Source of the DNA: Mimachlamys varia
Taxonomy: Eukaryota > Mollusca > Bivalvia > Pectinida > Pectinidae
Direction: 5' to 3'
NCBI GenBank assembly: GCA_947623455.1
Contig: OX392527.1
Coordinates: forward strand, 4,584,001 to 4,648,000
Length of the DNA: 64,000 nt
A program made the translations under genes and the position numbers. Below, in pieces: positions 18,801-50,600 of the stretch (its first letter is position 1; every line of letters starts with the position of its first letter). The notes under the pieces are model-generated. The model ran no database searches. It had not been told where the DNA came from and was given only the letters and a program-made list of their open reading frames with translations.

Positions 18801-21800
18801 TTATTTACTTCAGGAAGTGTACATACACTGACTCGTATCATTCAAGGGGTTATTTACTTCAGGTAGTGTACATACACTGACTTGTATCCTTCAAGGGGTT
18901 ATTTACTTCAGGTAGTGTACATACACTGACTCGTATCATTCAAGGGGTTATTTACTTCAGCTAGTGTACATACACTGACTCGTATCATTCAAGGGGTTAT
19001 TTACTTCAGGTAGTGTACATACACTGACTCGTATCATTCAAGGGGTTATTTACTTCAGGAAGTGTACATACACTGACTTGTATCATTCAAGGGGTTATTT
19101 ACTTCAGGAAGTGTACATACACTGACTCGTATCATTCAAGGGGTTATTTACTTCAGGAAGTGTACATACACTGACTCGTATCATTCAAGGGGTTATTTAC
19201 TTCAGGAAGTGTACATACACTGACTTGTATCATTCAAGGGGTTATTTACTTCAGGTAGTGTACATACACTGACTCGTTTCATTCAAGGGGTTATTTACTT
19301 CAGGTAGTGTACATACACTGACTCGTATCATTCAAGGGGTTATTTACTTCAGGTAGTGTACAAACACTGACTTGTATCATTCAATGGGTTATTTACTTAA
19401 GGTAGCGTACATACACTGACTCGTATCATTCAAGGGGTTATTTACTTCAGGAAGTGTACATACACTGACTCGTATCCTTCAAGGGGCTATTTACTTCAGG
19501 AAGTGTACATACACTGACTCGTATCATTCAAGGGGTTATTTACTTCAGGAAGTGTACATACACTGACTCGTATCATTCAATGGGTTATTTACTTCAGGAA
19601 GTGTACATACACTGACTTGTATCATTCAAGGGGTTATTTACTTCAGGTAGTGTACATACACTGACTTGTATCATTCAATGGGTTATTTACTTCAGGAAGT
19701 GTACATACACTGACTCGTATCATTCAAGGGGTTATTTACTTCAGGAAGTGTACATACACTGACTCGTATCATTCAATGGGTTATTTACTTCAGGAAGTGT
19801 ACATACACTGACTCGTATCATTCAAGGGGTTATTTACTTCAGGAAGTGTACATACACTGACTCGTATCATTCAAGGGGTTATTTACTTCAGGAAGTGTAC
19901 ATACACTGACTCGTATCATTCAATGGGTTTTTTACTTCAGGAAGTGAACATACACTGACTCGTATCCTTCAAGGGGTTATTTACTTCAGGAAGTGTACAT
20001 ACACTGACTCGTATCATTCAATGGGTTATTTACTTAAGGTTGCGTACATACACTGACTCGTATCCTTCAAGGGGTTATTTACTTCAGGAAGTGTACATAC
20101 ACTGACTCGTATCCTTCAAGGGGCTATTTACTTCAGGAAGTGTACATACACTGACTCGTATCATTCAAGGGGTTATTTACTTCAGGAAGTGTACATACAC
20201 TGACTTGTATCATTCAAGGGGTTATTTACTTCAGGTAGTGTACATACACTGACTTGTATCATTCAAGGGGTTATTTACTTCAGGTAGTGTACATACACTG
20301 ACTTGTATCATTCAAGGGGTTATTTACTTCAGGAAGTGTACATACACTGACTTGTATCATTCAAGGGGTTATTTACTTCAGGTAGTGTACATACACTGAC
20401 TTGTATCATTCAGGGGGTTATTTACTTCAGGTAGTGTACATACACTGACTTGTATCATTCAGGGGGTTATTTACTTCAGGTAGTGTACATACACTGACTT
20501 GTATCATTCAATGGGTTATTTACTTCAGCTAGTGTACATACACTGACTTGTATCATTCAAGGGGTTATTTACTTCAGCTAGTGTACATACACTGACTCGT
20601 ATCTTTCAAGGGGCTATTTACTTCAGGAAGTGTACATACACTGACTTGTATCATTCAAGGGGCTATTTACTTCAGGAAGTGTACATACACTGACTTGTAT
20701 CATTCAAGGGGTTATTTACTTCAGCTAGTGTACATACACTGACTCGTATCATTCAAGGGGCTATTTACTTCAGGAAGTGTACATACACTGACTCGTATCA
20801 TTCAATGGGTTATTTACTTCAGCTAGTGTACATACACTGACTCGTATCATTCAAGGGGTTATTTACTTCAGGTAGTGTACATACACTGACTCGTATCCTT
20901 CAAGGGGTTATTTACTTCAGGTAGTGTACATACACTGACTTGTATCCTTCAAGGGATTATTTACTTCAGGTAGTGTACATACACTGACTTGTATCCTTCA
21001 AGGGATTATTTACTTCAGCTAGCGTACATACACTGACTCGTATCCTTCAAGGGGTTATTTACTTCAGGTAGTGTACATACACTGACTTGTATCCTTCAAG
21101 TGATTATTTACTTCAGGTAGCGTACATACACTGACTTGTATCATTCAAGGGGTTATTTACTTCAGGTAGTGTACATACACTGACTTGTATCATTCAAGGG
21201 GTTATTTACTTCAGGAAGTGTACATACACTGACTTGTATCATTCAAGGGGTTATTTACTTCAGCTAGTGTACATACACTGACTCGTATCATTCAATGGGT
21301 TATTTACTTCAGGTAGCATACATACACTGACTTGTATCCTTCAAGGGGTTATTTACTTCAGGTAGCGTACATACACTGACTCGTATCCTTCAAGGGGTTA
21401 TTTACTTCGGGTAGTGTACATACACTGACTTGTATCATTCAAGGGGTTATTTACTTCGGGTAGTGTACATACACTGACTTGTATCATTCAAAGGGTTATT
21501 TACTTCAGCTAGTGTACATACACTGACTCGTATCATTCAAGGGGTTATTTACTTCGGGTAGTGTACATACACTGACTTGTATCATTCAAGGGGTTATTTA
21601 CTTCAGCTAGTGTACATACACTGACTCGTATCATTCAATGGGTTATTTACTTCAGGTAGCATACATACACTGACTTGTATCCTTCAAGGGGTTATTTACT
21701 TCAGCTAGTGTACATACACTGACTCGTATCATTCAAAGGGTTATTTACTTCAGGTAGTGTACATACACTGACTTGTATCATTCAAGGGGTTATTTACTTC

Positions 21801-24800
21801 AGCTAGTGTACATAAACTGACTCGTATCCTTCAATGGGTTATTTACTTCAGGTAGTGTACATAAACTGACTCGTATCCTTCAAGGGGTTATTTACTTCAG
21901 TTAGCATACATACACTGACTTGTATCCTTCAACGAGTTATTTACTTCAGCTAGTGTACATACACTGACTCGTATCCTTCAAGGGGTTATTTACTTCAGCT
22001 AGTGTACATACACTGACTCGTATCCTTCAAGGGGTTATTTACATCAGGTAGCGTACATACACTGACTCGTATCCTTCAAGGGTTTTTTACTTCAGCTAGT
22101 GTACATAAACTGACTCGTATCCTTCAATGGGTTATTTACTTCAGGTAGCGTACATAAACTGACTCGTATCCTTCAAGGGGTTATTTACTTCAGGTAGTGT
22201 ACATACACTGACTCGTATCCTTCAATGGGTTATTTACTTCAGGTAGTGTACATAAACTGACTCGTATCCTTCAAGGGGTTATTTACTTCAGTTAGCATAC
22301 ATACACTGACTTGTATCCTTCAACGAGTTATTTACTTCAGCTAGTGTACATACACTGACTCGTATCCTTCAAGGGGTTATTTACTTCAGCTAGTGTACAT
22401 ACACTGACTCGTATCCTTCAAGGGGTTATTTACATCAGGTAGCGTACATACACTGACTCGTATCCTTCAAGGGTTTTTTACTTCAGCTAGTGTACATAAA
22501 CTGACTCGTATCCTTCAATGGGTTATTTACTTCAGGTAGTTTACATAAACTGACTCGTATCCTTCAAGGGGTTATTTACTTCAGGTAGTGTACATACACT
22601 GACTCGTATCCTTCAAGGGGTATTTACTTCAGGTAGCGTACATACACTGACTCGTATCCTTCACATTGTCATATGTTTGTTGGTGTATTGTTGGGAAAAC
22701 CTATTGAGCTAACAATAATTCTGCCAAATACAGTCTTGAAAAAAAGTAAATTCTGTTTGGTGGTGTGCATAACTAGCCTTTCTCTGGAATTTTAGCAAGT
22801 TCCACGTTCGACATATCATTACAGCAATTGATCATTATCCAAAACCATTCATACTTCCTGCAAAGGACATGTCAACCTAACATTAATATATCATATAGAG
22901 TTTGCCGGAGGACATGTCAACCTTTGATACATTAATATATTATATAGAGTTTGCTGGAGGACATGTCGGCCCGTGATACATTAATATATTATATAGAGTT
23001 TGCTGGAGGACTTGTCAACCTAACATTAATATATTATATAGAGTTTGCTGGAGGATATGTTGGCCCGTGATACATTAATATATTACATAGAGTTTGTTGG
23101 AAGAGCATTATGCATATACTTAAATCATGTGTATGGGTGAAACGCGCGCAGACAAACAAACATTTACAATAATGTACCTCTATTATCTTTGTACTTCTTG
23201 GTAGTGCTCTTGGTCCTTTCACCGGGGGCTGAGTGGAAAACACAATCTCATCTTCCTGAAAATCTGATACAGAGATGGCATGAGTATATACATTTATTCA
23301 TAAAATGGTCTAATCCTGTAACAGTACACAATCATGAGTAATATAATCATTCAATTCTCATACATTGTACAGTTCGTGATTCCCGTGTTATTTTATAACA
23401 ATCGATACATTTATATAAAGCGATTAAAACAGGGGGTATAAATGTATTGATCAGTATCTTACCATCGCGAGATACAATGGGACTGCAGGGGAAACCTCGC
23501 CCTCGGTCTTCTGCCTGTTAAATAGAATCATAGAAACATGTGAAATAGAGTCATATCCACAGATTCAATAGATCATAGCCACGGGTTTAATAGTCCTAGC
23601 CACAAGTTAATATCAAGTGGAAAAATACTCAAATTGTGATCGTATTGCTATACACAAGAGTTAGACACAGATATCATACCAGTGCACAAGATTTGCGGAT
23701 GTACTTAAATACATGACTATTTACTTACTGTTATTAAAGGCCCAATATACGTAACTTTTGGTAAAACTTGAAGCCAAAATCAAGCCTAATAACTTATTCT
23801 ATTTATAACTTTAGTTAAGATTAACTGATATCAGCAATATCCAAGATGAATTCTTACGCGGTTACCGGTAGAGCAGCAGTTAAAACTCGGTATTTGTAAA
23901 CACGCGTCCATTTCGAACTGTCTTCTAACTTCGGCTTGTTGTTGAAGTGGACCACACCAGAATTATTTTTAATTATTTGGATTTTTTTGTCAAGAGTTTC
24001 TTGTTAGTTACCGCTCAGGTTTACTTCGCTTTAGACTTATTTTTGCATGGTTATCAACTGGATTTTTTTCACAACTTTTCAGAATCCCGAAAAAAATCCT
24101 GAAGTTACGTATATTGAGCCTTTAAAATAGACAATTCTGATAAAACATGATTGTTAATGGGGAAATGTTTGCAAAGGTTACTGATACCAAGGAAATGCAT
24201 CATGAAGTTTTCAATACAGGGTAATCTAAAAAATAAGCATCGTATGTTTTAATCAAAGTAATAGTTGGTTTAATTTCATTTGTTCCCTAGGAGTTTACAT
24301 GTACATGTACACAACCGTTACTTGTCCACAGTTCAACTTCTGTGAAACTGGTGGTGGATCGTTCCGCCTGCCTATACAGCAAACTAACCTGGCTACTGTG
24401 TCCTTCCTCTGGTATGGTTATCTCCGGGCCTGAAGACATCGAATTTTTCCTCTTTATTTTAAAGACATTAGAAATCTTTTTTGAAAATGATGGTTTTTTC
24501 TGTCCGTATGCTCCACTGACCTGAAATGTACATTTCTTCGTTAAATACTGTTCATGGTCACTGTATGGTATTTACCGCCTCATGATCAATTATTCTTGCA
24601 GCAATAACTTTAATTAATGACATTGATTGAACTGTAATAGAATAGAAATATGACAACAGATAAAGCTGTGTATAAATGTTATTTGTTTTTTTTTCTATCC
24701 TTAACTAAGTGTCCAGACATCAACTTTAACATCAAAATGAACAAAGTTGGGTAAGTGACAGATGTTTGTCATCATCGGTTACGATAAATGTAAGACTATT

Positions 24801-27800: not shown

Positions 27801-30800
27801 AAACCATGTATACTTCACTCAACAGCTTATAACAGCAACACCATCATAAACCATGTATACTTCACTCAACAGCTTATAACAGCAACACCATCATAAACCA
27901 TGTATACTTCACTCAACAGTTTATAACATCAACACCATCATAAACCATGTATACTTCACTCAACAGTTTATAGCAGCAACACCATCATAAACCATGTATA
28001 CTTCACTCAACAGTTTATAACAGCAACACTATATATCATAAACCATATATACTTCACTCAACAGTTTATAACAGCAACACTATCATAAACCATGTATACT
28101 TCACTCAACAGTTTATAACAGCAACACCATCATAAACCATGTATACTTCACTCAACAGTTTATAACAGCAACACTATATATCATAAACCATGTATACTTC
28201 ACTCAACAGTTTATAGCAGCAACACCATCATAAACCATGTATACTTCACTCAACAGTTTATAACAGCAACAGTATCATAAACCATGTATACTTCACTCAA
28301 CAGTTTATAACAACAACAGTATCATAAACCATGTATACTTCACTCAACAGTTTATAACAGCAACACCATCATAAACCATGTATACTTCACTCAACAGTTT
28401 ATAACAGCAACACTATCATAAACCATGTATACTTCACTCAACAGTTTATAACAGCAACACCATCATAAACCATGTATACTTCACTCAACAGTTTATAACA
28501 GCAACAGTATCATAAACCATGTATATTTCACTCAACAGTTGATAGCAGCAACAATATATATCATAAACCATGTATACTTCACTCAACAGTTTATAACAGC
28601 AACAATATCATAAACCATGTATACTTCACTCAACAGTTTATAGCAGCAACACCATCATAAACCATGTATACTTCACTCAACAGTTTATAGCAGCAACAAT
28701 ATATATCATAAACCATGTATACTTCACTCAACAGTTTATAACAGCAACAATATCATAAACCATATATACTTCACTCAACAGCTTATAACAGCAACACCAT
28801 CATAAACCATGTATACTTCACTCAACAGCTTATAACAGCAACAATATCATAAACCATATATACTTCACTCAACAGCTTATAACAGCAACACCATCATAAA
28901 CCATGTATACTTCACTCAACAGTTTATAGCAGCAACAATATATATCATAAACCATGTATACTTCACTCAACAGTTTATAACAGCAACACCATCGTAAACC
29001 ATGTATACTTCACTCAACAGTTTATAGCAGCAACACCATCATAAACCATGTATACTTCACTCAACAGTTTATAACAGCAACACCATCATAAACCATGTAT
29101 ACTTCACTCAACAGTTTATAGCAGCAACAATACCGTAAACAATGTATACTTCACTCAACAGTTTATAACAGCAACACCATCATAAACCATGTATACTTCA
29201 CTCAACAGTTTATAACAGCAACACTATCATAATCCATGTATACTTCACTCAACAGTTTATAACAGCAACACTATCATAAACCATATATACTTCACTCAAC
29301 AGTTTATAACAGCAACAATATCATAAACCTGTGTATAAACGGGTGACAGTATTGTTTACTTAATTCTGTTGATAATATACGAGTATACCTTGCGACTTTC
29401 TCGGCTTGCGATACTGGCTCGTATGCTATCCTTGTCCGATTCACTACTCCTTCGGTGAGACCGGTATTGCGGTGGATGCTCAACAAACCACGTCGACTCC
29501 CCTGAGTAAAATAGAGCATAATTATACATCTAGTGTAAGATAACATAAGATGAACTTTATTTAAAATCGGTGAGCATAAAAACAAATACGTAAGCCCTGA
29601 AGAGCTTTTTACCAGCGTAAATCAAACACAGGCTTTATGTTTTCAAAGCATGTCACATCAAACGATATACATTTTAAAAGCCATATTAAATAAAATGTGC
29701 TTTGTAGTCCTGGGTGTTGTTTCTGATTAGAAAAGCATTACCTTCTTTCTTGCCATCTGAAAATGGATTTGAATGGACTGGTTCCTGGTACGACCAGCCT
29801 CTTTCAAGGTTATCTGAAACATACATAGCTACATTATTTTGTTGCTGGAACATTGCCAGAAGTTGCGAAAATTAGTATATTATGTGCATGTAAAATAGAT
29901 ATTTTTTTATTCACCAACAAAAACAAACATGTACACATATAACGAATACGTAAATACATCACCATACAGCCCGGATACAGGGAAATGTGCACACACAAGC
30001 ACACACATACATGTATGTATAAACACATAATACACACACATACATACATATACAGACATACATGTGCACATGTACGTACACATGGATATGCATTAATAGT
30101 ATGACCCATTATGTAAAATCTACTTGATGTAAAACGAATTATAAATAAATACCTTAGAAGTCAACGGTAAACGATCATCTTTTAATCAGCGGTAAGCTTT
30201 CTTTTTTTTCAATAATTACTTGGGCTCCAGATAAGTTTCTGTCAGATAAATTGATGTCGGCAGTCTCTCATACATATGGTACTTATCTGCTATCGGGAAA
30301 ATTTCAGTTTGAACAAACGATTCTCATGCCACCCCTTTACCTCTACATAATACACCATTAGATAATTAGGACCACCTCTTTACCTCTACATAATACACCA
30401 TTTGATCATTAGGGTATCCCGTACCGTAGTTGCCGGAGGGTCTGAGGTCACAAACGGAACTGCTGAGGGACATGTTGGGCACGCTCCTCACAGAATGGGG
30501 CTTTCCTGAAACACAAACTGGAGTGTCTATCTATGGTCATTTAACAATGTAATTGTGAGTGTCGGTCCTGAGAAAAATAGCCATATGCTGATAGAGTTTT
30601 GCTTAGCGTCGAAATTAATCATAAACATGTTTTTAAGTTTATTATTGAGGAACACGAGAGATGGCTTGTTTCTAGGAAAAATTGTTTATGTAGCGTTTTC
30701 TTTCTCTTTTACATGTATCAAGTATTAAGAAAGTTTTTATTTTTTTTTTATCAAATATGATTAATCATGATACAACAAGACACAAGAAACTTTGTTTAAA

Positions 30801-33800
30801 GATTTTGTATCTTGTTGTACCACTAGTCAGGATGAGTAGACTTACGTGGTGCTGGCATGTAGCTGCTTCCGGTGTCCACATAGGACTGCTGCAGTCCGGA
30901 CACGCCGCTGTCCCGGGTGTCCTGCTCTCCTGCTTTGTCGCGCAGTGACGTACCATGGAGATCTAGGAGGAGATGGGAGTCTTCATTGGAATCCAATATA
31001 CCACTATCTGAGCTCCTAAGTCTTGTCACTGCATTGTTTTGTTTAAAGTACATTTTTAGGAATTTACGGATTATTTGGTGACAAAACATATCATGAAAAA
31101 TGGAGAATGAATAAATATTACCAGTGAAATACCATATTAGAAAATTATCAAACTTGACGTCTTTTTAGGAACGCTTGGATATGGTGTTGGGCTATAGTGA
31201 CAAGCCTACCTTTGGTTTGCTCTGTCACGTGTGGTTTCTCCAGCAGTTTCACCATGTCTGTAAACCCATTCCTTTTTGCGATATCTCTGGGTGTCTCGTG
31301 GTTTCTGTTACACCTGAGGCAGGCCGCCACCAAACATGGAATCTGAAGCAGCTCGTCCGTCGACAGTAGTAAGTTCGTATCGGCACAGAAATGCAGCAGG
31401 GTCGGCCATTCACTGTCGCTGTCTTTCCCTGGAAATTCAACAGGATACCAGAGTGTCAAAAAATACAATTGTAATTCAAAAGTGATAAAACTATTGTAAG
31501 TCGATGTATATACTATAGAAAGTTTGTGTCTACCTAGACAACGATCCTCTGTTTCACAATCTATTACATCGTGGGACATGGTCGAAACGTTATCGTTGGC
31601 AAATACCAAAATGTGGACACCTAAACCTAAACAATGAGCTAAAGCATGGAGTCTGAATCTGAGCACCAAAAGTTAAACGTTTGACAACATGCACAAAATA
31701 AATATCTGTCGAATCCTAGTAATACTCCCTATAGACAATTGATAGTCACAACGAATAAAACAATGTAGCATGTTTGCTTATGAGATCATGATAAAGAACA
31801 ATGTACATGTCTGTTAATGAGATCATGGTATCCAACAATGTACATGTCTGTTAATGAGGTCATGATATCCAACAATGTACATATCTTTTAATGTGATCAT
31901 GGTATCCAACAATGTAGCATGTCTGTTAATATGATCATGGTATCCAACAATGTACATGTCTGTTAATGTGGTCATGGTATCCAACAATGTAGCATGTCTG
32001 TTAACGAGATCATGGTATCAAACAATGTAACATGTCTGTTAATGAAATCATGGTATCCAACAATGTAGCATGTCTGTTAACGAGATCATGGTATCCAACA
32101 ATGTACATATCTGTTAATGAGGTCATGGTATCCAACAATGTAACATGTCTTCTAACGAGATCATGGTATCAAACAATGTAGCATGTCTGTTAATGAGATC
32201 ATGGTATCCAACAATGTAGCATGTCTGTTAACGAGATCATGGTATCAAACAATGTAACATGTCTGTTAATGAGATCATGGTATCCAACAATGTAGCATGT
32301 CTGTTAACGAGATCATGGTATCAAACAATGTAACATGTCTTCTAACGAGATCATGGTATCAAACAATGTAGCATGTCTGTTAATGAGATCATGGTATCAA
32401 AAAATGTAGCATGTCTGTTAATGAGGTCATGGTATCCAACAATGTACATGTCTGTTAATGAGATCATGGTATCCAACAATGTACATATCTGTTAATGAGG
32501 TCATGGTATCCAACAATGTAACATGTCTTCTAACGAGATCATGGTATCAAACAATGTAGCATGTCTGTTAATGAGATCATGGTATCCAACAATGTAGCAT
32601 GTCTGTTAACGAGATCATGGTATCAAACAATGTAACATGTCTGTTAATGAGATCATGGTATCCAACAATGTAGCATGTCTGTTAACGAGATCATGGTATC
32701 AAACAATGTAACATGTCTTCTAACGAGATCATGGTATCAAACAATGTAGCATGTCTGTTAATGAGATCATGGTATCAAAAAATGTAGCATGTCTGTTAAT
32801 GAGGTCATGGTATCAAACAATGTAGCATGTCTTCTAACGAGATCATGGTATCAAACAATGTAGCATGTCTGTTAATGAGATCATGGTATCAAACAATGTA
32901 GCATGTCTGTTAATGAGATCATGGTATCAAACAATGTAGCATGTCTGTTAATGAGGTCATGGTATCAAACAATGTAGCATGTCTGTTAATGAGATCATGT
33001 TATCAAACAATGTAGCATGTCTGTTAATGAGATCATGGTATCAAACAATGTAGCATGTCTGTTAATGAGGTCATGGTATCAAACAATGTAGCATGTCATC
33101 TAACGAGATCATGGTATCAAACAATGTAGCATGTCTGTTAATGAGATCATGGTATCAAACAATGTAGCATGTCTGTTAATGAGATCATGGTATCAAACAA
33201 TGTAGCATGTCTGTTAACGAGATCATGGTATCAAACAATGTAGCATGTCTGTTAATGAGATCATGGTATCAAACAATGTACATGTCTGTTAATGAGATCA
33301 TGGTATCCAACAATGTAGCATGTCTGTTAATGAGAACATGGTATCAAACAATGTAGCATGTCTGTTAATGAGATCATGGTATCCAACAATGTAGCATGTC
33401 TGTTAATGAGATCATGGTATCCAACAATGTAGCATGTCTGTTAATGAGATCATGGTATCAAACAATGTAGCATGTCTGTTAATGAGATCATGGTATCCAA
33501 CAATGTACATGTCTGTTAATGAGATCATGGTATCCAACAATGTAGCATGTCTGTTAATGAGATCATGGTATCAAACAATGTACATGTCTGTTAATGAGGT
33601 CATGGTATCCAACAATGTACATGTCTGTTAATGAGATCATGGTATCAAACAATGTAGCATGTCTGTTAATGTGATCATGGTATCAAACAATGTAGCATGT
33701 CTGTTAATGAGATCATGGTATCCAACAATGTAGCATGTCTGTTAATGAGGTCATGGTATCAAACAATGTAGCATGTCTGTTAATGAGATCATGGTATCAA

Positions 33801-36800
33801 ACAATGTAGCATGTCTGTTAACGAGATTGTTACGTGATAATAATAAAAAAGGGAAACAAATAGCTTAATTCAAAACACAATTTAATGATATCGCTTCCCT
33901 CGGGTGTAATAATTCCCGTGTTACTCGAAAACCATGCAATAATCTAAACATGATAACGACTATTAAATGTACGGTTTGACAGTAGTTTTCCTAAGCTTTA
34001 TTCGTGGCAAGCCATGTTATTATGACTATCACTATATTTGGAGCAGCCTTTTGAATATTAAATCAACTGCGACAGAAGAAAATCATGGATATTACTGTCT
34101 AGAAAAGAGAAGATCATGATTGAAAAAGCGAAATCTGTCTGCTCATCAGGTAGTAGCCGTCGATGTTAAAAATTAAAAATATACTGTATATACCACATAA
34201 GAGATTCATTTCTTCTCTCAAGGATTTGTCATACTTACACGTAAGAATCATTTTAAAAGAGAAAAAATTACAAGTAGGTATATATACACAGTTACATTAT
34301 CTAATAATCAACGCAATGTGGTTCCGTTACAGAACTGTAACACACACAATTAGCTGTATTAATTAATCCTCATCAATTTTGTGTACTTTACCTGTGTCGT
34401 CTTGCACCAACAACTCCGTGAAATGTTCCGTTAATCTTAATCGGCGACACTTCCTGGACAAATATTTATCTAGTTGTTCATGATCTGCGTTAGGTATCCG
34501 CAGGGCCCTGCAGAGAACGTATACCGGGTCCGTCTCCTTCTCCAGGATGTCATGTATAATATCCAGACCGGACGGCGGATCCGGACTGGAGGAGTCTGAA
34601 CACTGGCTGGTTCCTTGTTTCACGTTTTCGTTGGAGATTTCAGTCTGATGAACGTCGTTTTGGTATATACTGTCAAATTCACACGCCATTGACCCGAAAC
34701 TTTGATCTTTACAGACAGCGATAAATTTAATGCCGTTCTCCTGAATAAGATTATCTGGAAAAGAAAGAAATTTGATAAAGAGATATTTTTCTCGTTTAAA
34801 ATCCCATTGGAAAGTCAAAGGAATAGTACTTACATAATCATGTATTTGTATTATCTTAGAGGACGTAGTTATATATCCCTAAACAGGTTTAGGAATAATA
34901 TACACATTTTCGTAGTAAACAATTTGACATTATACAGAACTAGTTTAATTTTACTTCTAAATTCATAAATTAAAGGGGTTTTACGCACCTGACCCTTCTA
35001 ATTCTACATTAGTTTAGAAATTTGGATTCCAACCCTTTAGTCTTTAGTATCACTGAAGAGTCCTAGGAGGACGAAACAGCTGTATGTTAATTCACTGTGT
35101 ATTCTAGCCTATACACGTCAATGAGTACTCACTGTGTATTCTAGCCTATAAACGTTAATGGGTACTCACTGTGTATTCTAGCCTTAGAAATATAAACGTT
35201 AATGGGTACTCACTGTGTATTCTAGCCTTAAAAACGTTAATGGGTACTCACTGTGTATTCTAGCCTTATAAACGTTAATGGGTACTCACTGTGTATTCTA
35301 GCCTTATAAACGTTAACCGGTACTCACTGTGTATTCTAGTCTTATAAACGTTAATGGGTACTCACTTTGTATTCTAGCCTTATAAACGTTAATGGGTACT
35401 CACTGTGTATTCTAGCCTATAAACGTTAATGGGTACTCACTGTGTATTCTAGCCTATAAACGTTAATGGGTACTCACTGTGTATTCTAGCCTTATAAACG
35501 TTAATGGATACTCACTGTGTATTCTAGCCTTATAAACGTTAATGGGTACTCACTGTGTATTCTAGCCTTATAAACGTTAATGGGTACTCACTGTGTATTC
35601 TAGCCTTATAAACGTTAATGGGTACTCACTGTGTATTCTAGCCTACATTTTGTATAAACGTTAATGGGTACTCACTGTGTATTTTAGCCTATAAACGTTA
35701 ATGGGTACTCACTGTGTATTTTAGCCTATAAACGTTAATGGGTACTCACTGTGTATTCTAGCCTTATAAACGTTAATGGGTACTCACTGTGTATTCTAGC
35801 CTATAAACGTTAATGGGTACTCACTGTGTATTCTAGCCTTATAAACGTTAACCGGTACTCACTGTGTATTCTAGCCTTATAAACGTTAACCGGTACTCAC
35901 TGTGTATTCTAGCCTTATAAACGTTAATGGGTACTCACTGTGTATTCTAGCCTTATAAACGTTAATGGGTACTCACTGTGTATTCTAGCCTTATAAACGT
36001 TAACCGGTACTCACTGTGTATTCTAGCCTTATAAACGTTAACGGGTACTCACTGTGTATTCTAGCCTTATAAACGTTAATGGGTACTCACTGTGTATTCT
36101 AGCCTTATAAACGTTAATGGGTACTCACTGTGTATTCTAGCCTTATAAACGTTAATGGGTACTCACTGTGTATTCTAGCCTTATAAACGTTAATGGGTAC
36201 TCACTGTGTATTCTAGCCTTATAAACGTTAATGGGTACTCACTGTGTATTCTAGCCTTATAAACGTTAACCGGTACTCACTGTGTATTCTAGCCTATAAA
36301 CGTTAATGGGTACTCACTGTGTATTCTAGCCTTATAAACGTTAATGGGTACTCACTGTGTATTCTAGCCTTATAAACGTTAATGGGTACTCAATGTGTAT
36401 TCTAGCCTATAAACGTTAATGGGTACTCACTGTGTATTCTAGCCTTATTAACGTTAATGGGTACTCACTATGTATTCTAGCCTTATTAACGTTAATGGGT
36501 ACTCACTGTGTATTCTAGCCTATAAACGTTAATGGGTACTCACTGTGTATTTTAGCCTATAAACGTTAATGGGTACTCACTGTGTATTCTAGCCTATAAA
36601 CGTTAATGGGTACTCACTGTGTATTTTAGCCTATAAACGTTAATGGGTACCACTGTGTATTTTAGCCTATAAACGTTAATGGGTACTCACTGTGTATTTT
36701 AGCCTATAAACATTAATGGGTACTCACTGTGTATTTTAGCCTATAAACGTTAATGGGTACTCACTGTGTATTCTAGCCTATAAACGTTAATGGGTACTCA

Positions 36801-39340
36801 CTGTGTATTCTAGCCTTATAAACGGCCTTGTCGATCTCCTTCGTCGGGATGTTTTCTCCTGACTCTAGTGTCAGTACGAGGTCCGAGTCAGCTCGCCGGT
36901 CTAACATAACCAGTATGTCTTTGTAGTCGTCGTCCTTAAAGGATGCATGACAAACATTTATTAATAATTCAAACACATATACACAATGTAGGGTATCTAG
37001 AAGTGTATTCAGTTACCAAATGTAATTCACGAGGGTTTCTTATATAATATTTTGATTAATATTTTGTGTAGCACGAGTGAAAGATACCAAAATATTAGAC
37101 GTGAATATATTGGGAGAACTGAATACGATGTTAGATATTCTGTTAATTACTCTTTATAAACAACACATATCCCGGCACACAAAACGACGCGTGAAGTTAA
37201 TGATACACTATATACAGTACTTGATCTGGTTACTAACAAGTTAACGATACACTATATACAGTACTTGATCGGGTTATTAACAAGTTAACGATACACTATA
37301 TACAGTACTTGATCGGGTTATTAACAAGTTAACGATACACTATATACAGTACTTGATCGGGTTACTAACAAGTTAACGATACACTATATACAGTACTTGA
37401 TCGGGTTATTAACAAGTTAACGATACACTATATACAGTACTTGATCGGGTTACTAACAAGTTAACGATACACTATATACAGTACTTGATCGGGTTATTAA
37501 CAAGTTAACGATACACTATATACAGTACTTGATCGGGTTACTAACAAGTTAACGATACACTATATACAGTACTTGATCTGACTAATAACAAATTAACGAT
37601 ACACTATATACAGTACTTGATCGGGTTATTAACAAGTTAACGATACACTATATACAGTATTTGATCGGGTTATTAACAAGTTAACGATACACTATATACA
37701 GTACTTGATCGGGTTACTAACAAGTTAACGATACACTATATACAGTACTTGATCGGGATACTAACAAGTTAACGATACACTATATACAGTACTTGATCGG
37801 GTTACTAACAAGCATGTCTGGACCACCCCACCCGACAAAATAAAGTCGACTCTGCACAAACTAAAATACGATATGAAAACTCATAATTTAATTCCTTAAG
37901 TTTTTTGCCTTTTTTTAAATTTTAGATATAATATGACAATTTACCATACTTATCTAATCACGTAGAAAAAAGTCCCATCATACCATGTAACAACCAAGAT
38001 TTCTACGCGTTGTTACTATGCGCCGAATCTACAACGGTGGTGAGTGTGTTTGTGTGTTTTTCTTGGAGGGGGGGGGGGTGTTAAACGTTGTTTCGTCATC
38101 ACTTACATGTATCCGAACGATACTTTCTGATAATCGCTATGCCTAACTTTGGACTACTGTTTTCTCTGATCAGACCTGATAATCGCTTTGCCTAACTTTG
38201 GACTACTGTTTTCTCTGATCAGACCTGATAATCGCTTTGTCTAACTTTGGACTACTGTTTTCTCTGATCAGACCTGATAATCGCTATGCCTAACTTTGGA
38301 CTACTGTGTTTTCTCTGATCAGACCTGATAATCGCTTTGTCTAACTTTGGACTACTGTTTTCTCTGATCAGACCTGATAATCGCTATGCCTAACTTTGGA
38401 CTACTGTGTTTTCTCTGATCATTTAAGATTTTTGTCATGTTTGCCAATTAAGTTTTCTGTCCTTGTATGTTAATATACTGGAAGAGCTTTTCGAAAATCA
38501 CAATCACTTTAATGATTAACGTAAAGCTATAACAAGTGTTATCTTAGGCGATGTGCAAAGCGTTGACGTAACGTGGGTCAACATGGCGCCAAAATGACGT
38601 CATGTTATTGTCCGGTGGTCTGGACTGCCTCAGTCTATACTATTGTCCAGATTAACACCGTGTTAATGGGAAGCCGTCAAACAAAATGTTAACATTGTAG
38701 AATGAATACATTTCAATATATGATGAAAAATTCTTTCGATATGACGTACCTCATTGCCAGGAAGTTTCATGACATCATGAAGTGCGTTTATCTGGCGGGC
38801 TGGTGGCAAAGTGTCATAGTCGACGTTGTCTCCCCCACTGACGGAAGACCTGTCCTCAAAGCTTGTCTCGGGCACCAGTTCAAACAGGGGATCCTCCACA
38901 CAATCTTCTTCATCTTCAACTTCATCCCCGCCATGCAAGCTTTCATATAGGTTTATGATAGTCAGGAGGAGACCTTTCACGGAGTCCCGAGTTTGTTGTG
39001 GACAATAACAAATCCACTTTAAAAGTCGACTTTGGGGACTTTGTCTTGCGACAGATTCGTGGAATTCAGCTTTACTTGTGCCCAGTAGTATGGCTAATGA
39101 ATGTACGACACTGCATCTTTGAAATGTTTCATTCGAATCCAACGCAAGAAATTCCGGACTGACCAGAGCAATGTTGACGTCAGATTTGGAAGTTTGGATC
39201 CAGGGAGTCTGCATCTCGTGTAACTCTGTAGGTATACCATACTGTGCCTCGCTCAGCTTTTTCTGTAGAAATGATCCCCAAGAGCCTCCATCCGATTTAA
39301 CGTAATGTATCACAGCTTTGCCGGTAACAGTGGTTGCCAT
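9812..39340 (-). CDS. PIK3AP1-like: PIK3AP1/BANK1/Dof-family signalling adaptor, 13 coding exons, 709 aa
   Basis: Coding exons in transcript order: 39340-38750, 36934-36802, 34754-34392, 31428-31210, 31028-30846, 30505-30425, 29813-29742, 29501-29389, 24520-24389, 23510-23463, 23255-23178, 10297-10223, 9853-9812. Every junction is GT-AG and phases match throughout (0,1,1,1,1,1,1,0,0,0,0,0), giving 2130 nt including the stop. Residues 1-135 resemble the cryptic TIR domain of BCAP (beta-strand-like IHYVKSDGG and VNIALVSPEFLAL). Residues 198-362 fit the DBB region. Residues 366-425 (WPTLLHFCAD ... DIAKRNGF) match the ankyrin-like segment after DBB. The tail has YxxM at Tyr642 (YLAM, the PI3K p85 SH2 consensus), YxN at Tyr272 and Tyr523 (Grb2-type), Tyr485/492/532, and two basic stretches. 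Known family role: cytoplasmic adaptors linking receptors to PI3K; Dof acts in FGF signalling. Size is close to the vertebrate proteins (about 800 aa). The ATG at 39340 sits in a strong context (ACCATGG) and is the first ATG of its frame; the upstream in-frame stretch has no ATG. Family assignment is firm; orthology to one vertebrate member is not established. Confidence 0.85.
10223..10297 (-). CDS. PIK3AP1-like: Exon 12: second polybasic segment (residues 672-696)
   Basis: 75 nt, acceptor CTATTATTTTAG|CAA, donor ATTGAT|GTAAGT, phase 0. It encodes QKEEEPEVPKRSFKKMK and NPFRKKID. It lies about 15 bp from the edge of the 12.3-kb 49-bp array, so the satellite abuts the acceptor region. NPF occurs here again (689-691). 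Confidence 0.75.
10314..22663. repeat. 49-bp satellite array, 12.35 kb, about 250 copies (intron 11)
   Basis: The unit starts ggttatttacttcaggtagt and includes gtacatacactgactcgtat. Common variants are ccttcaa/cattcaa, aagggg/aatggg/aggggg, and aggtag/agctag/aggaag. Variant markers recur with higher-order periods of about 833, 1372 and 1470 bp between 11.5 and 15.8 kb. Each unit carries a small inverted repeat (AGTGTA-CA-TACACT). The whole array lies inside one intron of the adaptor gene, ending about 15 bp from the exon 12 acceptor. Confidence 0.97.
22868..23103. repeat. Roughly 53-bp minisatellite, about 4.5 copies (intron 11)
   Basis: The unit contains attaatatattatatagagt, ttgctggaggacatgt and alternating caaccta/cggcccgtgata versions of 47-55 bp. 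It ends about 75 bp from exon 11. Confidence 0.85.
23178..23255 (-). CDS. PIK3AP1-like: Exon 11: proline/basic tail segment (residues 646-671)
   Basis: 78 nt, acceptor GATTTTCAG|GAA, donor ATAGAG|GTACAT, phase 0. It encodes EDEIVFSTQPPVKGPRALPR and STKIIE. The proline/arginine spacing resembles an SH3 ligand but is not a clean consensus. A 12.9-kb intron made almost wholly of satellite follows. Confidence 0.72.
23463..23510 (-). CDS. PIK3AP1-like: Exon 10: short exon carrying the YxxM motif (residues 630-645)
   Basis: 48 nt, strong donor ATG|GTAAGA. There are two tandem acceptors, AACAG and 4 nt later GGCAG. Only the second keeps phase 0 with canonical acceptors on both sides, and reads KTEGEVSPAVPLYLAM. 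Tyr642 is then in YLAM, a match to the p85 SH2-binding YxxM that defines BCAP function. Using the first acceptor would force a non-standard acceptor in exon 11. Because the exon is 48 nt in phase 0, skipping it would also keep frame. Confidence 0.6.
23738..24121. mobile_element. 384-bp MITE with TTAA target duplication (intron 9)
   Basis: The inverted ends AGGCCCAATATACGTAACTT (left) and AGGCTCAATATACGTAACTT (right, reverse complement) match over 20 bp with one mismatch. They are flanked by TTAA on both sides (23734-23737 and 24122-24125). TTAA duplication is typical of the piggyBac superfamily. The element encodes nothing, so it is non-autonomous. Confidence 0.75.
24389..24520 (-). CDS. PIK3AP1-like: Exon 9: polybasic tail segment (residues 586-629)
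   Basis: 132 nt, acceptor CATTTCAG|GTC, donor AGCCAG|GTTAGT, phase 0 both ends. It contains KKPSFSKKISNVFKIKRK, a basic amphipathic-looking stretch, then SGPEITIPEEG. A similar pattern recurs in exon 12 (SF-KK-N-F-K), suggesting an internally repeated membrane- or partner-binding motif. Confidence 0.77.
24530..25145. other. Intron 8, unassigned 3' portion
   Basis: AT-rich intronic sequence between exon 9 and the 30-bp array. No repeat, RNA gene or further exon is supported. Confidence 0.5.
25146..25525. repeat. 30-bp minisatellite, about 12-13 copies (intron 8)
   Basis: The unit contains aaaccggagaaaaataaaca and caacggtgtc. Because 30 is a multiple of three, all frames stay open on both strands, producing apparent proteins that are only the repeat. 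The 5' copies have accgga and the 3' copies have actgaa/actgatg. Two or three further units appear at 27112-27180, after an insertion. Confidence 0.93.
25735..26700. repeat. 128-bp tandem repeat, about 7.5 copies
   Basis: The exact 128-bp period is shown by gaagccaggaaatagcgg at 25800, 25928, 26056, 26184, 26312, 26440 and 26568. Units are almost identical and include atttcattgaaatcggacaa and atgttgacgaatcacgaaac. The last unit breaks down at about 26696. Confidence 0.96.
26988..27062. repeat. (AAT)n microsatellite with AAG interruptions
   Basis: About 25 trinucleotides, aataataat with sporadic aag, near the right end of the inserted element. Poly-Ile/Tyr/Leu frames on the minus strand are artefacts of it. 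Confidence 0.95.
27230..29330. repeat. 47-bp minisatellite, about 44 copies (intron 8)
   Basis: The unit starts accatgtatacttcactcaa and continues cagtttataacagcaacacc atcataa. Length variants of about 43 and 51 bp come from the caccatcat / caatatatatcat segment. It ends about 60 bp before exon 8. The unit does not match any exon. Confidence 0.96.
29389..29501 (-). CDS. PIK3AP1-like: Exon 8: basic/serine-rich tail (residues 548-585)
   Basis: 113 nt, acceptor TTTTACTCAG|GG, donor GCAAG|GTATAC. Phase 1 in, phase 0 out; this is where the phase of the gene changes. The phased frame gives ESTWFVEHPPQYRSHRRSSE and then IRASIASRESRK. The longest simple open frame here is a different one and is not the coding frame. 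Confidence 0.75.
29742..29813 (-). CDS. PIK3AP1-like: Exon 7: tail (residues 524-547)
   Basis: 72 nt, acceptor ATGTTTCAG|AT, donor GAAG|GTAATG, phase 1 both ends. It encodes NLERGWSYQEPVHSNPFSD. Tyr532 sits in YQEP, and NPF (539-541) matches the EH-domain ligand tripeptide, though that may be chance. Confidence 0.77.
29985..30075. repeat. CA/TACA-rich microsatellite (intron 6)
   Basis: Imperfect cacacacatacatgtatg-type simple sequence; no gene. Confidence 0.8.
30425..30505 (-). CDS. PIK3AP1-like: Exon 6: Ser-rich tail (residues 497-523)
   Basis: 81 nt, acceptor TGTTTCAG|GA, donor CTACG|GTACGG, phase 1 both ends. It encodes KPHSVRSVPNMSLSSS and ends SGNY. The codon split with exon 7 makes Asp, giving NYDNL, a YxN motif at Tyr523. 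The exon is short, but its phase and splice sites agree with both neighbours. Confidence 0.78.
30846..31028 (-). CDS. PIK3AP1-like: Exon 5: Ser/Tyr-rich tail (residues 436-496)
   Basis: 183 nt, acceptor AATGCAG|TG, donor CCAC|GTAAGT, phase 1 both ends. It is acidic and serine rich (RLRSSDSGILDS, DTRDSGVSG), followed by QQSYVDTGSSYMPAP with Tyr485 and Tyr492. It looks like a disordered signalling tail with candidate phosphotyrosines; no folded domain is visible. Confidence 0.8.
31210..31428 (-). CDS. PIK3AP1-like: Exon 4: ankyrin-like segment (residues 363-435)
   Basis: 219 nt. Acceptor ATTTCCAG|GG, donor AAAG|GTAGGC, phase 1 both ends. WPTLLHFCADTNLLL and NHETPRDIAKRNGFTDMVK align by eye with the ankyrin-like block after DBB in BCAP and BANK1 (TLLHFAA ... 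IAEKHGF pattern). This is the most diagnostic stretch for the family. The reading frame stays open past the donor to a TGA at 31148, so an intron-retained form would add a short alternative tail. Confidence 0.88.
31745..33826. repeat. 38-bp minisatellite, about 55 copies (intron 3)
   Basis: The unit starts gttaatgagatcatggtatc and continues aaacaatgtagcatgtct; 36-bp versions have tacatgtct. Variants are aacgag, ttctaacg, atccaac and gaggtc. Blocks of variants recur at a period of about 380 bp (for example aaaaaatgtagc at 32398 and 32777), showing block duplications. Short frames across it are repeat shadows. Confidence 0.96.
33830..34390. other. Intron 3, unassigned portion
   Basis: Unique AT-rich intronic DNA between the 38-bp array and exon 3; nothing recognised. 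Confidence 0.5.
34392..34754 (-). CDS. PIK3AP1-like: Exon 3: DBB region (residues 242-362)
   Basis: 363 nt between a pyrimidine-rich acceptor (TTTCTTTTCCAG) and donor ACAG|GTAAAG; phase 1 at both ends. It contains IKFIAVCKDQ, the Ser/Pro-rich insert SQCSDSSSPDPPSG, and the helical-looking LDIIHDILEKETDPVYVLCR and HFTELLVQDDT. Tyr272 lies in IYQND, a YxN match to the Grb2 SH2 consensus; phosphorylation there is inference. Confidence 0.87.
35079..36832 (-). repeat. 38-bp minisatellite made of the exon 2 splice-donor junction, about 45 copies (intron 2)
   Basis: On the plus strand the unit contains tactcactgtgtattctagc and cttataaacgttaatggg (36 bp where ctta is cta). On the minus strand it reads ATAAGGCTAGAATACACA|GTGAGTACCC, exactly the end of exon 2 with its donor. 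The copy next to exon 2 (36795-36832) runs into unique coding sequence. Nearly all copies keep GTGAGT; exceptions include those near 36391 and 36651. Confidence 0.97.
36802..36934 (-). CDS. PIK3AP1-like: Exon 2: DBB region (residues 198-241)
   Basis: 133 nt. Acceptor TTTAAG|GAC, then DDDYKDILVMLDRR and IPTKEIDKAVYKARIH. The donor is CACA|GTGAGT, phase 1. The last 23 or so exon bases and the first 13 or so intron bases are identical to the unit of the minisatellite that fills intron 2, so this exon end is the first member of that array. Reading through the donor meets an in-frame TAG after nine further codons. Confidence 0.85.
37191..37812. repeat. 44-bp minisatellite, about 14 copies (intron 1)
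   Basis: The unit starts gttaacgatacactatatac and continues agtacttgatcgggttacta acaa; it is highly homogeneous (cgggttatt/cgggttact variants). Confidence 0.96.
37813..38125. other. Intron 1, unassigned portion
   Basis: Unique sequence with a poly-G run near 38068; nothing else recognised. Confidence 0.5.
38126..38420. repeat. 49/51-bp minisatellite, 6 copies (intron 1)
   Basis: The unit starts ctgataatcgctatgcctaa and continues ctttggactactgttttctc tgatcagac, with tgcc/tgtc and gttttc/gtgttttc variants. Confidence 0.94.
38421..38749. other. Intron 1, region next to exon 1
   Basis: Contains one TGACGTCA (38596-38603), a CRE consensus, near atggcgcc. Its position inside intron 1 could be regulatory, but similar GACGTCA strings at 9104 and 42590 sit in repeat-like DNA, so a transposon origin is equally likely. 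Confidence 0.3.
38750..39340 (-). CDS. PIK3AP1-like: Exon 1: start codon and TIR-like domain (residues 1-197)
   Basis: 591 nt, 197 complete codons. It opens MATTVTGKAV and carries the whole TIR-like region, then an acidic linker (DEVEDEEDCVED, about 139-150) and the start of the DBB region (LPPARQINALHDVMK). The donor is GAG|GTACGT, phase 0. A possible acceptor (GGTTACAG) lies only 10 nt upstream of the ATG, at 39351-39352, so a separate 5' UTR exon further upstream is plausible. The usual TIR box-1 and catalytic glutamate of NADase TIRs are not evident, as in BCAP, so this is expected to be a protein-interaction domain. Confidence 0.85.
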
Positions 39341-44639: not shown

Positions 44640-47600
44640 ACGTCTACATTGGAAAATGTTTTCCCTGTGTCATCTACATTAGGGCAATGTTTCCCCCGTG
44701 TCATCTACATAAAGACAATGTTTTCCTTGTGTAGTCTACATTAATACAATGTTTTCCCCGTTTATTCTACATTAAGACAATGTTTTTTTCTGTGTAGTCT
44801 ACATTAGGACAATGTTTTTCCTGTATAGTCTACTGTAGGACAATGTTTTATCCATGTATTCTACATAAAGACAATGTTTTCCTTGTGTAGTCTACATTAG
44901 GACAATGTTTTCCCCGTGTAGTCAACATTAATACAATGTTTTCCCGATGTATTCTACATTTAGACAATGTTTTCCCCGTGTACAATGTTTTCCCCGTGTA
45001 GTCTACATTAGTACAATGTTTACCTGTGTAGTCTACATTAGGACAATGTTTTCCCTGTGTAGTCTACATAAGGACAATGTTTTCCCCATGTTGTCTACAT
45101 TAGGACAATGTTTTCCCCGTGTAGTCTACATTATGACAATGTCTTACCCGTGTAGTCTACATTAGGACAATGTTTTCCCTGTGTAGTCTACATTAGGACA
45201 ATGTTTTACCCATGTATTCTACATGAGGACAATATTTTTCCATGTGTAGTCTTCATTTGGACAATGTTTTCCCGATGTATTCTACATTAAGACAATGCCT
45301 TCCCCGTGTAGTCTACATTAGGACAATGTTCTCCCTGTGTAGTCTACATTAGGACAATGTTTTCCCTGTTTCATCTACACTAGGACAATGTTTTCCTGTG
45401 AAGTTACATTAGGAAAATGTCTCCCTGTTTTATCTACACTAGGACAATGTTTTCCTGTGTAGTCTACATTAGGACAATGTTTCCTGTGTAGTATACATTA
45501 GGACAATGTTTTCCTGTGAAGTTAAATTAGGACAATGTTTTCCCCGTGTAGTCTACATTAGGACAATGTTTTCCTGTGAAGTTAAATTAGGACAATGCTT
45601 TCCCGGTGTAGTTTACATAAGGACAATGTTTTCCTGGTGTAGTCTTCATTAGGACAATGTTTTCCCTGTGTAGTCTACATTAGGACAATGTTTTCCTCGT
45701 GTCATCTACATTAGGACAATGTTTTCCCGGTGTAGTCTACAATAGGACAATGTTTTCCCTGTGTAGTCTTCATTAGGACAATGTTTTCCAGTGTAGTCTA
45801 CAATAGGACAATGTTTTCCCTGTGTAGTCTTCATTAGGACAATGTTTTCCAGTGTAGTCTACAATAGGACAATGTTTTCCTGGTGTAGTCTACATTAGGA
45901 CAATGTTTTCCCCATGTATTCTACAATAGGACAAAGTTTTCCCGGTGTAGTCTACAATAGGACAATGTTTTCCCTGTTTAGTCTTCATTAGGACAATGTT
46001 TTCCCGTGTAGTCTACAATAGGACAATGTTTTTCCTGTGTAGTTTTCATTAGGACAATGTTTTCCAGTGTAGTCTACAATAGGACAATGTTTTCCTGGTG
46101 TAGTCTACATTAGGACAATGTTTTCCCCATGTATTCTACAATAGGACAAAGTTTTCCCGGTGTAGTCTACAATAGGACAATGTTTTCCCTGTTTAGTCTT
46201 CATTAGGACAATGTTTTCCCGTGTAGTCTACAATAGGACAATGTTTTTCCTGTGTAGTCTTCATTAGGACAATGTTTTCCCTGTGTAGTCTTCATTAGGA
46301 CAATGTTTTCCCTGTGTAGTCTTCATTATGACAATGTTTTCCCGTGTAGTCTACAATAGGACAATGTTTTCCCTGTGTAGTCTACAATAGGACAATGATT
46401 TCCCGTGTAGTCTACAATAGGACAATGTTTTCCCTGTGTAGTCTTCATTAGGACAATATTTTCCCCCTGTAGTCTACAATAGGACAATGTTTTCCCGTTG
46501 TAGTCTACATTGGGACAATGTTTTCCCCGTGTTGTCTACATTAGGACAATGTTTTCCCTGTGTAGTCTACATTAGGACAATGTTTTCCCCATGTATTCTA
46601 CAATAGGACAATGTTTTCCCTGTGTAGTCTACATTAGGACAATGTTTTCCCGGTGTAGTCTACATAAGGACAATGTTTTCCCCATGTTGTCTACATTAGG
46701 ACAATGTTTTCCCTGTTTCATCTACACTAGGACAATGTTTTCCTGTGAAGTTACATTAGGACAATGTTTTCCCTGTGTAGTCTACATTAGGACAATGTTT
46801 TTCCTGTTTCATCTACACTAGGACAATGTTTTCCCTGTTTCATCTACATTAGGACAATGTTTTCCCTGTGTAGTCTACATTAGGACAATGTTTTCCCTGT
46901 GTAGTCTTCATTAGGACAATGTTTTCCCTGTGTAGTCTACATTAGGACAATGTTTTCCCTGTTTCATCTACACTAGGACAATGTTTTCCTGTGAAGTTAT
47001 ATTAGGACAATGTTTTCCCTGTGTAGTCTACATTAGGACAATGTTTTCCCTGTGTAGTCTACATTAGGACAATGTTTTCCCTGTGTAGTCTACATGAGGA
47101 CAATGTTTTCCCTGTGTAGTCTACATTAGGACAATGTTTTCCCTGTGTAGTCTACATTAGGTCAATGTTTTCCCTGTTTCATCTACACTAGGACAATGTT
47201 TTCCTGTGAAGTTACATTAGGACAATGTTTTCCCTGTGTAGTCTACATTAGGACAATGTTTTTCCTGTTTCATCTACACTAGGACAATGTTTTTCCTGTT
47301 TCATCTACATTAGGACAATGTTTTCACTGTGTAGTCTACATTAGGACAATGTTTTCCCTGTTTCATCTACACTAGGACAATGTTTTCCTGTGAAGTTACA
47401 TTAGGGCAATGTTTTCTCTGTGTAGTCTACATTAGGACAATGTTTTCCCTGTTTCATCTACACTAGGACAATGTTTTCCTGTGAAGTTACATTAGGACAA
47501 TGTTTTCCCTGTGTAGTCTACATTAGGACAATGTTTTTCCTGTTTCATCTACACTAGGACAATGTTTTCCTGTGAAGTTACATTAGGACAATGTTTTCCC

Positions 47601-50600
47601 TGTGTAGTCTTCATTCGGACAATGTTTTCTCGTGTAGTCTACAATAGGACAATGTTTTCCCGGTGTAGTCTACATTAGGACAATGTTTTCCCCATGTATT
47701 CTACAATAGGACAAAGTTTTCCCTGTGTAGTCTACAATAGGACAATGTTTTCCCTGTGTAGTCTACATTAGGACAATGTTTTCCCGTGTACTCTACAATA
47801 GGACAATGTTTTTCCTGTGTAGTCTTCATATAGGACAATGTTTTCCCTGTGTAGTCTTCATTAGGACAATGTTTTCCCTATGTAGTCTACAATACGACAA
47901 TGTTTTCCCGGTGTAGTCTACATTAGGACAATGTTTTCCCTGTGTAGTCTACATTAGGACAATGTTTTCCCCATGTATTCTACAATAGGACAATGTTTTC
48001 CCGTGTAGTCTACAATAGGACAATGTTTTCCCTGTGTAGTCTTCATTAGGACAATATTTTCCCCCTGTAGACTACAATAGGACAATGTTTTCCCGGTGTA
48101 GTCTACATTGGGACAATGTTTTCCCCGTGTTGTCTACATTAGGACAATGTTTTCCCTGTGTAGTCTACATTAGGACAATGTTTTCCCCATGTATTCTACA
48201 ATAGGACAATGTTTTCCCTGTGTAGTCTACATTATGACAATGTTTTCCCGGTGTAGTCTACATAAGGACAATGTTTTCCCCATGTTGTCTACATTTGGAC
48301 AATGTTTTCCTGTGAAGTTACATTAGGACAATGTTTTCCCTGTGTAGTCTACATTAGGACAATGTTTTTCCTGTTTCATCTACACTAGGACAATGTTTTT
48401 CCTGTTTCATCTACATTAGGACAATGTTTTCACTGTGTAGTCTACATTAGGACAATGTTTTCCCTGTTTCATCTACACTAGGACAATGTTTTCCTGTGAA
48501 GTTACATTAGGACAATGTTTTCCCTGTGTAGTCTACATTAGGACAATGTTTTTCCTGTTTCATCTACACTAGGACAATGTTTTCCCTGTTTCATCTACAT
48601 TAGGACAATGTTTTCCCTGTGTAGTCTACATTAGGACAATGTTTTCCCTGTGTAGTCTTCATTAGGACAATGTTTTCCCTGTGTAGTCTACATTAGGACA
48701 ATGTTTTCCCTGTTTCATCTACACTAGGACAATGTTTTCCTGTGAAGTTATATTAGGACAATGTTTTCCCTGTGTAGTCTACATTAGGACAATGTTTTCC
48801 CTGTGTAGTCTACATTAGGACAATGTTTTCCCTGTGTAGTCTACATGAGGACAATGTTTTCCCTGTGTAGTCTACATTAGGACAATGTTTTCCCTGTGTA
48901 GTCTACATTAGGTCAATGTTTTCCCTGTTTCATCTACACTAGGACAATGTTTTCCTGTGAAGTTACATTAGGACAATGTTTTCCCTGTGTAGTCTACATT
49001 AGGACAATGTTTTTCCTGTTTCATCTACACTAGGACAATGTTTTTCCTGTTTCATCTACATTAGGACAATGTTTTCACTGTGTAGTCTACATTAGGACAA
49101 TGTTTTCCCTGTTTCATCTACACTAGGACAATGTTTTCCTGTGAAGTTACATTAGGACAATGTTTTCCCTGTGTAGTCTACATTAGGACAATGTTTTTCC
49201 TGTTTCATCTACACTAGGACAATGTTTTCCTGTGAAGTTACATTAGGGCAATGTTTTCTCTGTGTAGTCTACATTAGGACAATGTTTTCCCTGTTTCATC
49301 TACACTAGGACAATGTTTTCCTGTGAAGTTACATTAGGACAATGTTTTCCCTGTGTAGTCTACATTAGGACAATGTTTTTCCTGTTTCATCTACACTAGG
49401 ACAATGTTTTCCTGTGAAGTTACATTAGGACAATGTTTTCCCTGTGTAGTCTTCATTCGGACAATGTTTTCTCGTGTAGTCTACAATAGGACAATGTTTT
49501 CCCGGTGTAGTCTACATTAGGACAATGTTTTCCCCATGTATTCTACAATAGGACAAAGTTTTCCCTGTGTAGTCTACAATAGGACAATGTTTTCCCTGTG
49601 TAGTCTACATTAGGACAATGTTTTCCCGTGTACTCTACAATAGGACAATGTTTTTCCTGTGTAGTCTTCATATAGGACAATGTTTTCCCTGTGTTGTCTT
49701 CATTAGGACAATGTTTTCCCTATGTAGTCTACAATACGACAATGTTTTCCCGGTGTAGTCTACATTAGGACAATGTTTTCCCTGTGTAGTCTACATTAGG
49801 ACAATGTTTTCCCCATGTATTCTACAATAGGACAATGTTTTCCCGTGTAGTCTACAATAGGACAATGTTTTCCCTGTGTAGTCTTCATTAGGACAATATT
49901 TTCCCCCTGTAGACTACAATAGGACAATGTTTTCCCGGTGTAGTCTACATTGGGACAATGTTTTCCCCGTGTTGTCTACATTAGGACAATGTTTTCCCTG
50001 TGTAGTCTACATTAGGACAATGTTTTCCCCATGTATTCTACAATAGGACAATGTTTTCCCTGTGTAGTCTACATTATGACAATGTTTTCCCGGTGTAGTC
50101 TACATAAGGACAATGTTTTCCCCATGTTGTCTACATTTGGACAATGTTTTCCTGTGAAGTTACATTAGGGCAATGTTTTCTCTGTGTAGTCTACATTAGG
50201 ACAATGTTTTCCCTGTTTCATCTACACTAGGACAATGTTTTCCTGTGAAGTTACATTAGGACAATGTTTTCCCTGTGTAGTCTACATTAGGACAATGTTT
50301 TTCCTGTTTCATCTACACTAGGATAATGTTTTCCCTGTTTCATCTACATTAGGACAATGTTTTCCCTGTGTAGTCTACATTAGGACAATGTTTTCCCTGT
50401 GTAGTCTACATTAGGACAATGTTCCTTTGTAGTCTACATTAGGACAATGTTTTCCCGGTGTAGTCTACATTAGGACAATGTTTTCCCTATGTAATCTACA
50501 TTAGGACAATGTTTTTCCGGTGTAGTCTACATTAGGACAATGTTTTCCCCTTGTTGTCTACATAAGGACAATGTTTTCCCCGTGTAGTCTACATTAGGAC

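Follow-up and report, generated by a model that had tools for sequence, protein, structure and literature searches.

A minisatellite that repeats the exon 2–intron 2 junction of a predicted adaptor gene in the scallop Mimachlamys varia

Most of intron 2 in a predicted adaptor gene of the scallop Mimachlamys varia is filled by a minisatellite whose unit spans the boundary between exon 2 and intron 2, and which carries the 5′ splice donor of that exon along in every unit, intact in nearly all of them. We consider it quite probable that this is a boundary-spanning minisatellite of the kind termed a mirage, i.e., one that grew from the junction itself and that is tolerated through choice of the first donor. 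The array is most likely a by-product of minisatellite growth. The analysis covers a window of 64,000 nucleotides, which is the whole stretch of DNA referred to below.

Results

One gene runs along the minus strand within the window, from an ATG at 39340 to the end of the last matched exon at about 8798. Judged from sequence, its predicted product is a member of the Dof/BCAP/BANK (DBB) adaptor family, of a pectinid type. The DBB domain (PF14545) scores above the Pfam cut-off on the exon 3 reading frame (28.9 bits against 22.2) and, when the exons are provisionally joined into one protein, reaches 26.8 bits there, the match covering only positions 86–127 of the 139 in the profile. The reading frames of exons 1, 2 and 4 gave no Pfam family at E values up to 1. 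When the predicted protein of 435 residues was used in a protein search, two of 3970 candidates matched at E values up to 10, and both come from scallops: Mizuhopecten yessoensis LOC110459003 isoform X2, with 78% identity, and Pecten maximus LOC117322827 isoform X2, with 65%. By tblastn, the M. yessoensis protein matches the window at 13 places in gene order and, weakly and out of order, at two more (E values of 0.42 and 0.61). For the P. maximus protein there are 11 matching places, in order. A profile search, with scoring limited to the 7985 candidates that had the most words in common, adds seven insect DBB proteins and one from a fish, some of which are named Stumps or phosphoinositide 3-kinase adapter protein 1. 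A third protein search found the two scallop proteins alone. None of the three, including the one that scored those 7985 candidates, returned a bivalve orthologue outside the scallops, and no solved structure matched at E values up to 10. Going by the loose alignment with these relatives, the N-terminal part of the product may be TIR-like, with an immunoglobulin-like and an ankyrin-like part after it, and we use these names provisionally.

The gene model and tblastn place the following exons on the minus strand: exon 1, the first coding exon as modelled, which runs from the ATG to the donor GAG/GTACGT (38750–39340); exon 2, of 133 nt, with a phase 0 start and a phase 1 end (36802–36934; 66.7% identity with M. 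yessoensis over 45 amino acids by tblastn); exon 3, which follows the acceptor TTTCTTTTCCAG and carries the DBB match found with Pfam (34392–34754); and exon 4, which follows the DBB part (31210–31428) and which we take to be the ankyrin-like part. Exons 5 to 13 (8798–31028, minus strand) were obtained by tblastn with the orthologues; their ends were set by eye and are partly uncertain.

Exon 2 is in phase 0 after exon 1, and its phase 1 end fits the start of exon 3 at 34754. Upon joining 36802 to 34754, the protein aligns without gaps through the junction with both scallop orthologues, the junction peptide being KAVYKARIHNNLIQENGIKF in M. varia, KAVYKARIHKNLIHDNGIKF in M. yessoensis and QAVYKARIPKNLIHDNSIGF in P. 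maximus. The segment of exon 2 shared with the array codes for AVYKARI(H). AVYKARI is common to all three scallops, and the stretch KAVYKARIH is identical at nine of nine residues with M. yessoensis and at seven of nine with P. maximus. This evidence on exon 2 is comparative, both orthologue proteins being database gene models. The extent of the exon proposed in the first-pass annotation (36934–36802, 133 nt, ending in phase 1) agrees with the gene model, and its end at 36802 with the reading frame and the two orthologue proteins. A spurious exon 2 was ruled out, as the two proteins align across it. Frame and gap-free alignment also point to the GTGAGT of copy 1 (36796–36801, minus strand) as the predicted functional 5′ splice site; among the 46 copies, copy 1 alone closes exon 2 before any in-frame stop is reached.

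The minisatellite is reported by TRF as a single array at 35092–36824 (minus strand), with a period of 38, 45.7 copies and 95% matches. About 45 tandem copies of the junction had been announced, and the copy table and a recount give 46, including the exon's own. The composition of the unit was also as first described: on the sense strand, its 38 nt begin with the 23 nt that close exon 2 and continue with 15 intronic nt, of which GTGAGT comes first. A 37-nt type differs from it by lacking one A of the exonic part. The unit hence combines exonic with intronic sequence from a boundary that the orthologue proteins support. Copy 1 is the authentic exon end, the array reaching 36824 and the exon ending at 36802, and the exonic part of this first copy is formed by the final 23 nt of the exon (36824–36802). 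The 23 nt of the exonic part common to the copies, CGTTTATAAGGCTAGAATACACA, are unchanged in 22 of the 46, exon included. GTGAGT is intact in 43 of the 46 (its place is taken by GTGGTA, TTGAGT and GTGAAT in the remaining three), and 41 of these 43 have the 9-mer ACAGTGAGT in common. The donors of the 45 intronic copies, of which 42 are intact, lie within 35090–36764 on the minus strand, their first G running from 36764 to 35095. Successive donors are separated by 38 nt in 26 of the 45 gaps, by 37 nt in 16, and by 36, 44 and 46 nt in one each; the earlier figure of 36–38 nt per unit is thus correct for 43 gaps and fails for the two longest. The array is too regular to have arisen by chance, as judged from that regularity itself.

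Tandem repeats are abundant throughout the window, the union of the TRF rows covering 42,577 of its 64,000 bases, about two thirds. When 12 arrays were scanned on the sense strand for GTGAGT or GTAAGT, 43 such sites were found in the exon 2 array and none in the other 11. Of 13 arrays entered from the introns of the gene, four overlap an exon or sit within 20 nt of one: the exon 2 array; a 49-bp array (about 252 copies) that stops 16 nt short of exon 12; a pair of 43-bp units, which begins 11 nt past the donor of exon 6; and a worn 22–23-bp repeat, whose end lies 2 nt ahead of exon 10. When arrays were placed at random in the same introns, the mean number near exons was 0.85, and it was at least four in 0.66% of 20,000 trials; this permutation test is exploratory, as the threshold of 20 nt was chosen post hoc, the exon ends were set by eye and weak arrays were included among the 13. 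Taking into account that four of 13 arrays lie near exons, scallop introns may widely grow arrays seeded by splice sites, which we offer as a lead and not as a result.

Several of the other repeats have features of their own. The 49-bp array (10314–22663 and 10223–10297) extends over 12.35 kb, about 96% of the intron that precedes exon 12. As it stops 16 nt before the acceptor, its unit may include the branch-point region, and its sense strand contains 230 donor-like GTATGT sites. The worn repeat at 23515–23612 (4.4 copies by TRF) extends as far as the acceptor of exon 10, and the AACAG that serves as this acceptor closes its last copy; the repeat may be a decayed acceptor-side counterpart. 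The two-copy 43-bp repeat at 30329–30424, downstream of the donor predicted for exon 6, includes the donor-like sequence GAGGTAAAG. Outside the mapped exons of the gene lie a 31-bp array at 44642–53435, with about 275 copies in its main block, and a 46-bp array at 53743–59540, with about 128 copies. Finally, similar peptides are encoded on opposite strands within 4495–6106, AAYLDLCLNYDQHG at 4495–4782 (minus) and ASYLDLYLNYDQY at 5912–6106 (plus), which resemble retroelement fragments in inverted orientation.

Choice of donor and origin of the array

Reading on from exon 2 to any distal copy always leads to a stop at a single position, codon 54 of exon 2, within the first added unit. This is the case for all 45 distal copies, just as the first-pass annotation had anticipated. 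Exon length alone does not exclude donors 2, 3 and 4, since the exons that they would give are of ordinary size (170, 207 and 244 nt). A stronger donor was ruled out as the selector of copy 1, the 9-mer being identical in 41 of the 43 intact copies, and so was a more open one, copy 1 ranking 21 of 46 in predicted accessibility, where all values are low (0.00 to 0.11). The predicted pairing with U1 (−7.1 kcal/mol, register not enforced) is third of six donors compared in the gene. As neither the 9-mer nor accessibility gives copy 1 an advantage, the choice of the first donor would rest on position and exon context alone. Copy 1 does differ by position, being joined to the coding exon and nearest its acceptor, and exon definition would accordingly be what picks it, by an argument that is not airtight. 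From the sequence we infer that the first donor alone is used in RNA; nonsense products may arise through a modest leak. The locus is a natural experiment on how splicing selects a single donor from dozens that have one 9-nt sequence and similar predicted accessibility, and the readout is clean, any distal copy giving a stop.

The same properties could be read in another way, namely that splicing is leaky, that several of the first donors are used to a measurable extent and that array length tunes the amount of productive mRNA via nonsense-mediated decay. We regard this as rather improbable. One 9-mer in 41 of 43 intact donors, a predicted accessibility that is similar and uniformly low among them, exons of 170 to 244 nt from donors 2 to 4 and a stop from each of the 45 distal copies all favour it, as does, going by the title of a paper, a minisatellite that provides multiple splice donor sites in an interferon-induced transcript. 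Nothing, however, points to selection on array length, and the mirages of amphioxus are reported to occur without interference in regular splicing (PMC3087553, PMC3902484). The stronger proposal, that array length sets the fraction of productive mRNA and that splice-site-seeded arrays are widespread in scallop introns, we hold to be a long shot. If it were true, 42 intact distal donors would compete with the real one, the leak would be lost to nonsense-mediated decay, and scallops with different allele lengths would differ in the output of the adaptor gene.

As to origin, the junction had been proposed as the seed of the array, and a coding-first origin is what we favour on comparing the sequences. 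The orthologous exon 2 end was compared at the protein level, and AVYKARI is present in both M. yessoensis and P. maximus, free of gaps, in an exon with an overall identity to M. yessoensis of 66.7%, which argues for an old coding sequence from which the array was copied. A second sign is the one-A-shorter type, which makes up copies 2 to 9, adjoining the exon, and nine other copies, and is absent from the exon, where it would cause a frameshift. It is unlikely that, instead, an older intronic minisatellite extended into the exon and gave rise to its last codons. The exon end does equal, over 23 nt, the commonest donor-to-donor segment (GTGAGTACCCATTAACGTTTATAAGGCTAGAATACACA, 13 of 45, of exon-type sequence), but this is expected in either direction. 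The gap-free AVYKARI at the exon 2 end of two other scallops speaks against such a spread and so, weakly, does the loose alignment with the seven insect and one fish DBB proteins, where the region starts the next block and does not form a gap of its own. Assemblies often get the copy number of such arrays wrong; a distortion of that number, or of the array as such, is nevertheless most improbable here, as the 45 segments are of 17 distinct kinds in a non-random order, unlike simple stutter, and non-repeat sequence flanks the array on both sides. Neighbouring segments are more alike than shuffled ones (mean 0.943 against 0.927, with one of 1000 shuffles reaching the observed value), which fits local duplication. 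The array may be older than the split of the three scallops and have been kept uniform.

Growth from the junction, tolerated through first-donor choice, would have proceeded as follows. Replication slippage or unequal exchange would have duplicated a 38-nt segment, in which the last 23 coding nt of exon 2 adjoin the first 15 nt of intron 2. Expansion of the duplicate into the intron would have brought the total to 46 copies. The exon copy would have been held fixed because it codes for the conserved AVYKARI stretch. The spliceosome would pair the acceptor of exon 2 with the donor that comes first, joined as this is to the coding exon and its putative enhancers (exon definition), and it would be because of this pairing that the array is tolerated. 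Distal donors may bind U1 and would mostly go unused. Any leak would extend exon 2 to an early stop, its products presumably being removed by nonsense-mediated decay.

Comparison with known systems

The array is a large and clean bivalve case of a structure that has already been described. A paper of 1995 by Turri, Cuin and Porter reportedly bears in its title a minisatellite that provides multiple splice donor sites in a human interferon-induced transcript. In that transcript, 6-16/IFI6, the unit is reportedly short and its first few donors are used in frame, giving protein variants; this would differ from the scallop array, where a stop follows from every distal copy. The title already tells against the statement in the first-pass annotation that no case quite like this had been described. 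Nor does that statement stand beside the mirages of amphioxus, which are a like structure (PMC3087553, PMC3902484).

Internal tandem repeats at exon–intron boundaries within human segmental duplications are reported to alter splicing; their units average 30 bp, in four copies, and they have been linked to the formation of new introns (PMC2812944). The human repeats and the scallop array are both of minisatellite size and located at boundaries, but the former are linked to new introns, whereas the latter fills most of an existing intron with its junction kept. In a mollusc, a minisatellite with a 27-bp unit has been reported in intron 3 of an abalone TSSK1-like gene, its repeat number varying between individuals (PMC6905558); it is intronic like the scallop array, and the passages drawn on here say nothing of a unit that crosses a splice junction. 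Passages on sea bream and earthworm deal with intronic repeats or exon duplications and mention no array that spans a splice junction. Among titles and abstract openings on intron repeats of scallops and bivalves, no report of a boundary-spanning minisatellite in a bivalve was found, which is weak evidence of absence.

Amphioxus mirages have been described for Adh3, troponin C and the globins BflGb6 and BflGb9 (PMC3087553), and a paper on PGBD5 says the same of Adh and troponin C, comparing the PGBD5 repeats with these mirages (PMC3902484). In the mirages as in the scallop array, according to the accounts cited, the tandem unit spans an exon–intron boundary, which in mirages may be the 5′ or the 3′ one. 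Many mirage units, not all, keep the AG/GT splice signals, to be compared with GTGAGT in 43 of the 46 scallop copies. The unit of the Adh3 mirage has a length of 10–72 bp (PMC3087553), and splicing of the mirage-bearing genes is reported to be regular (PMC3087553, PMC3902484). Length polymorphism and somatic instability are among the criteria for the mirage class, whereas the scallop array is known from one sequence. Its 46 copies contrast with the six and three reported for two BflGb6 haplotypes. The host of the mirages is a lancelet and that of the present array a bivalve, to which boundary-spanning minisatellites are hereby extended.
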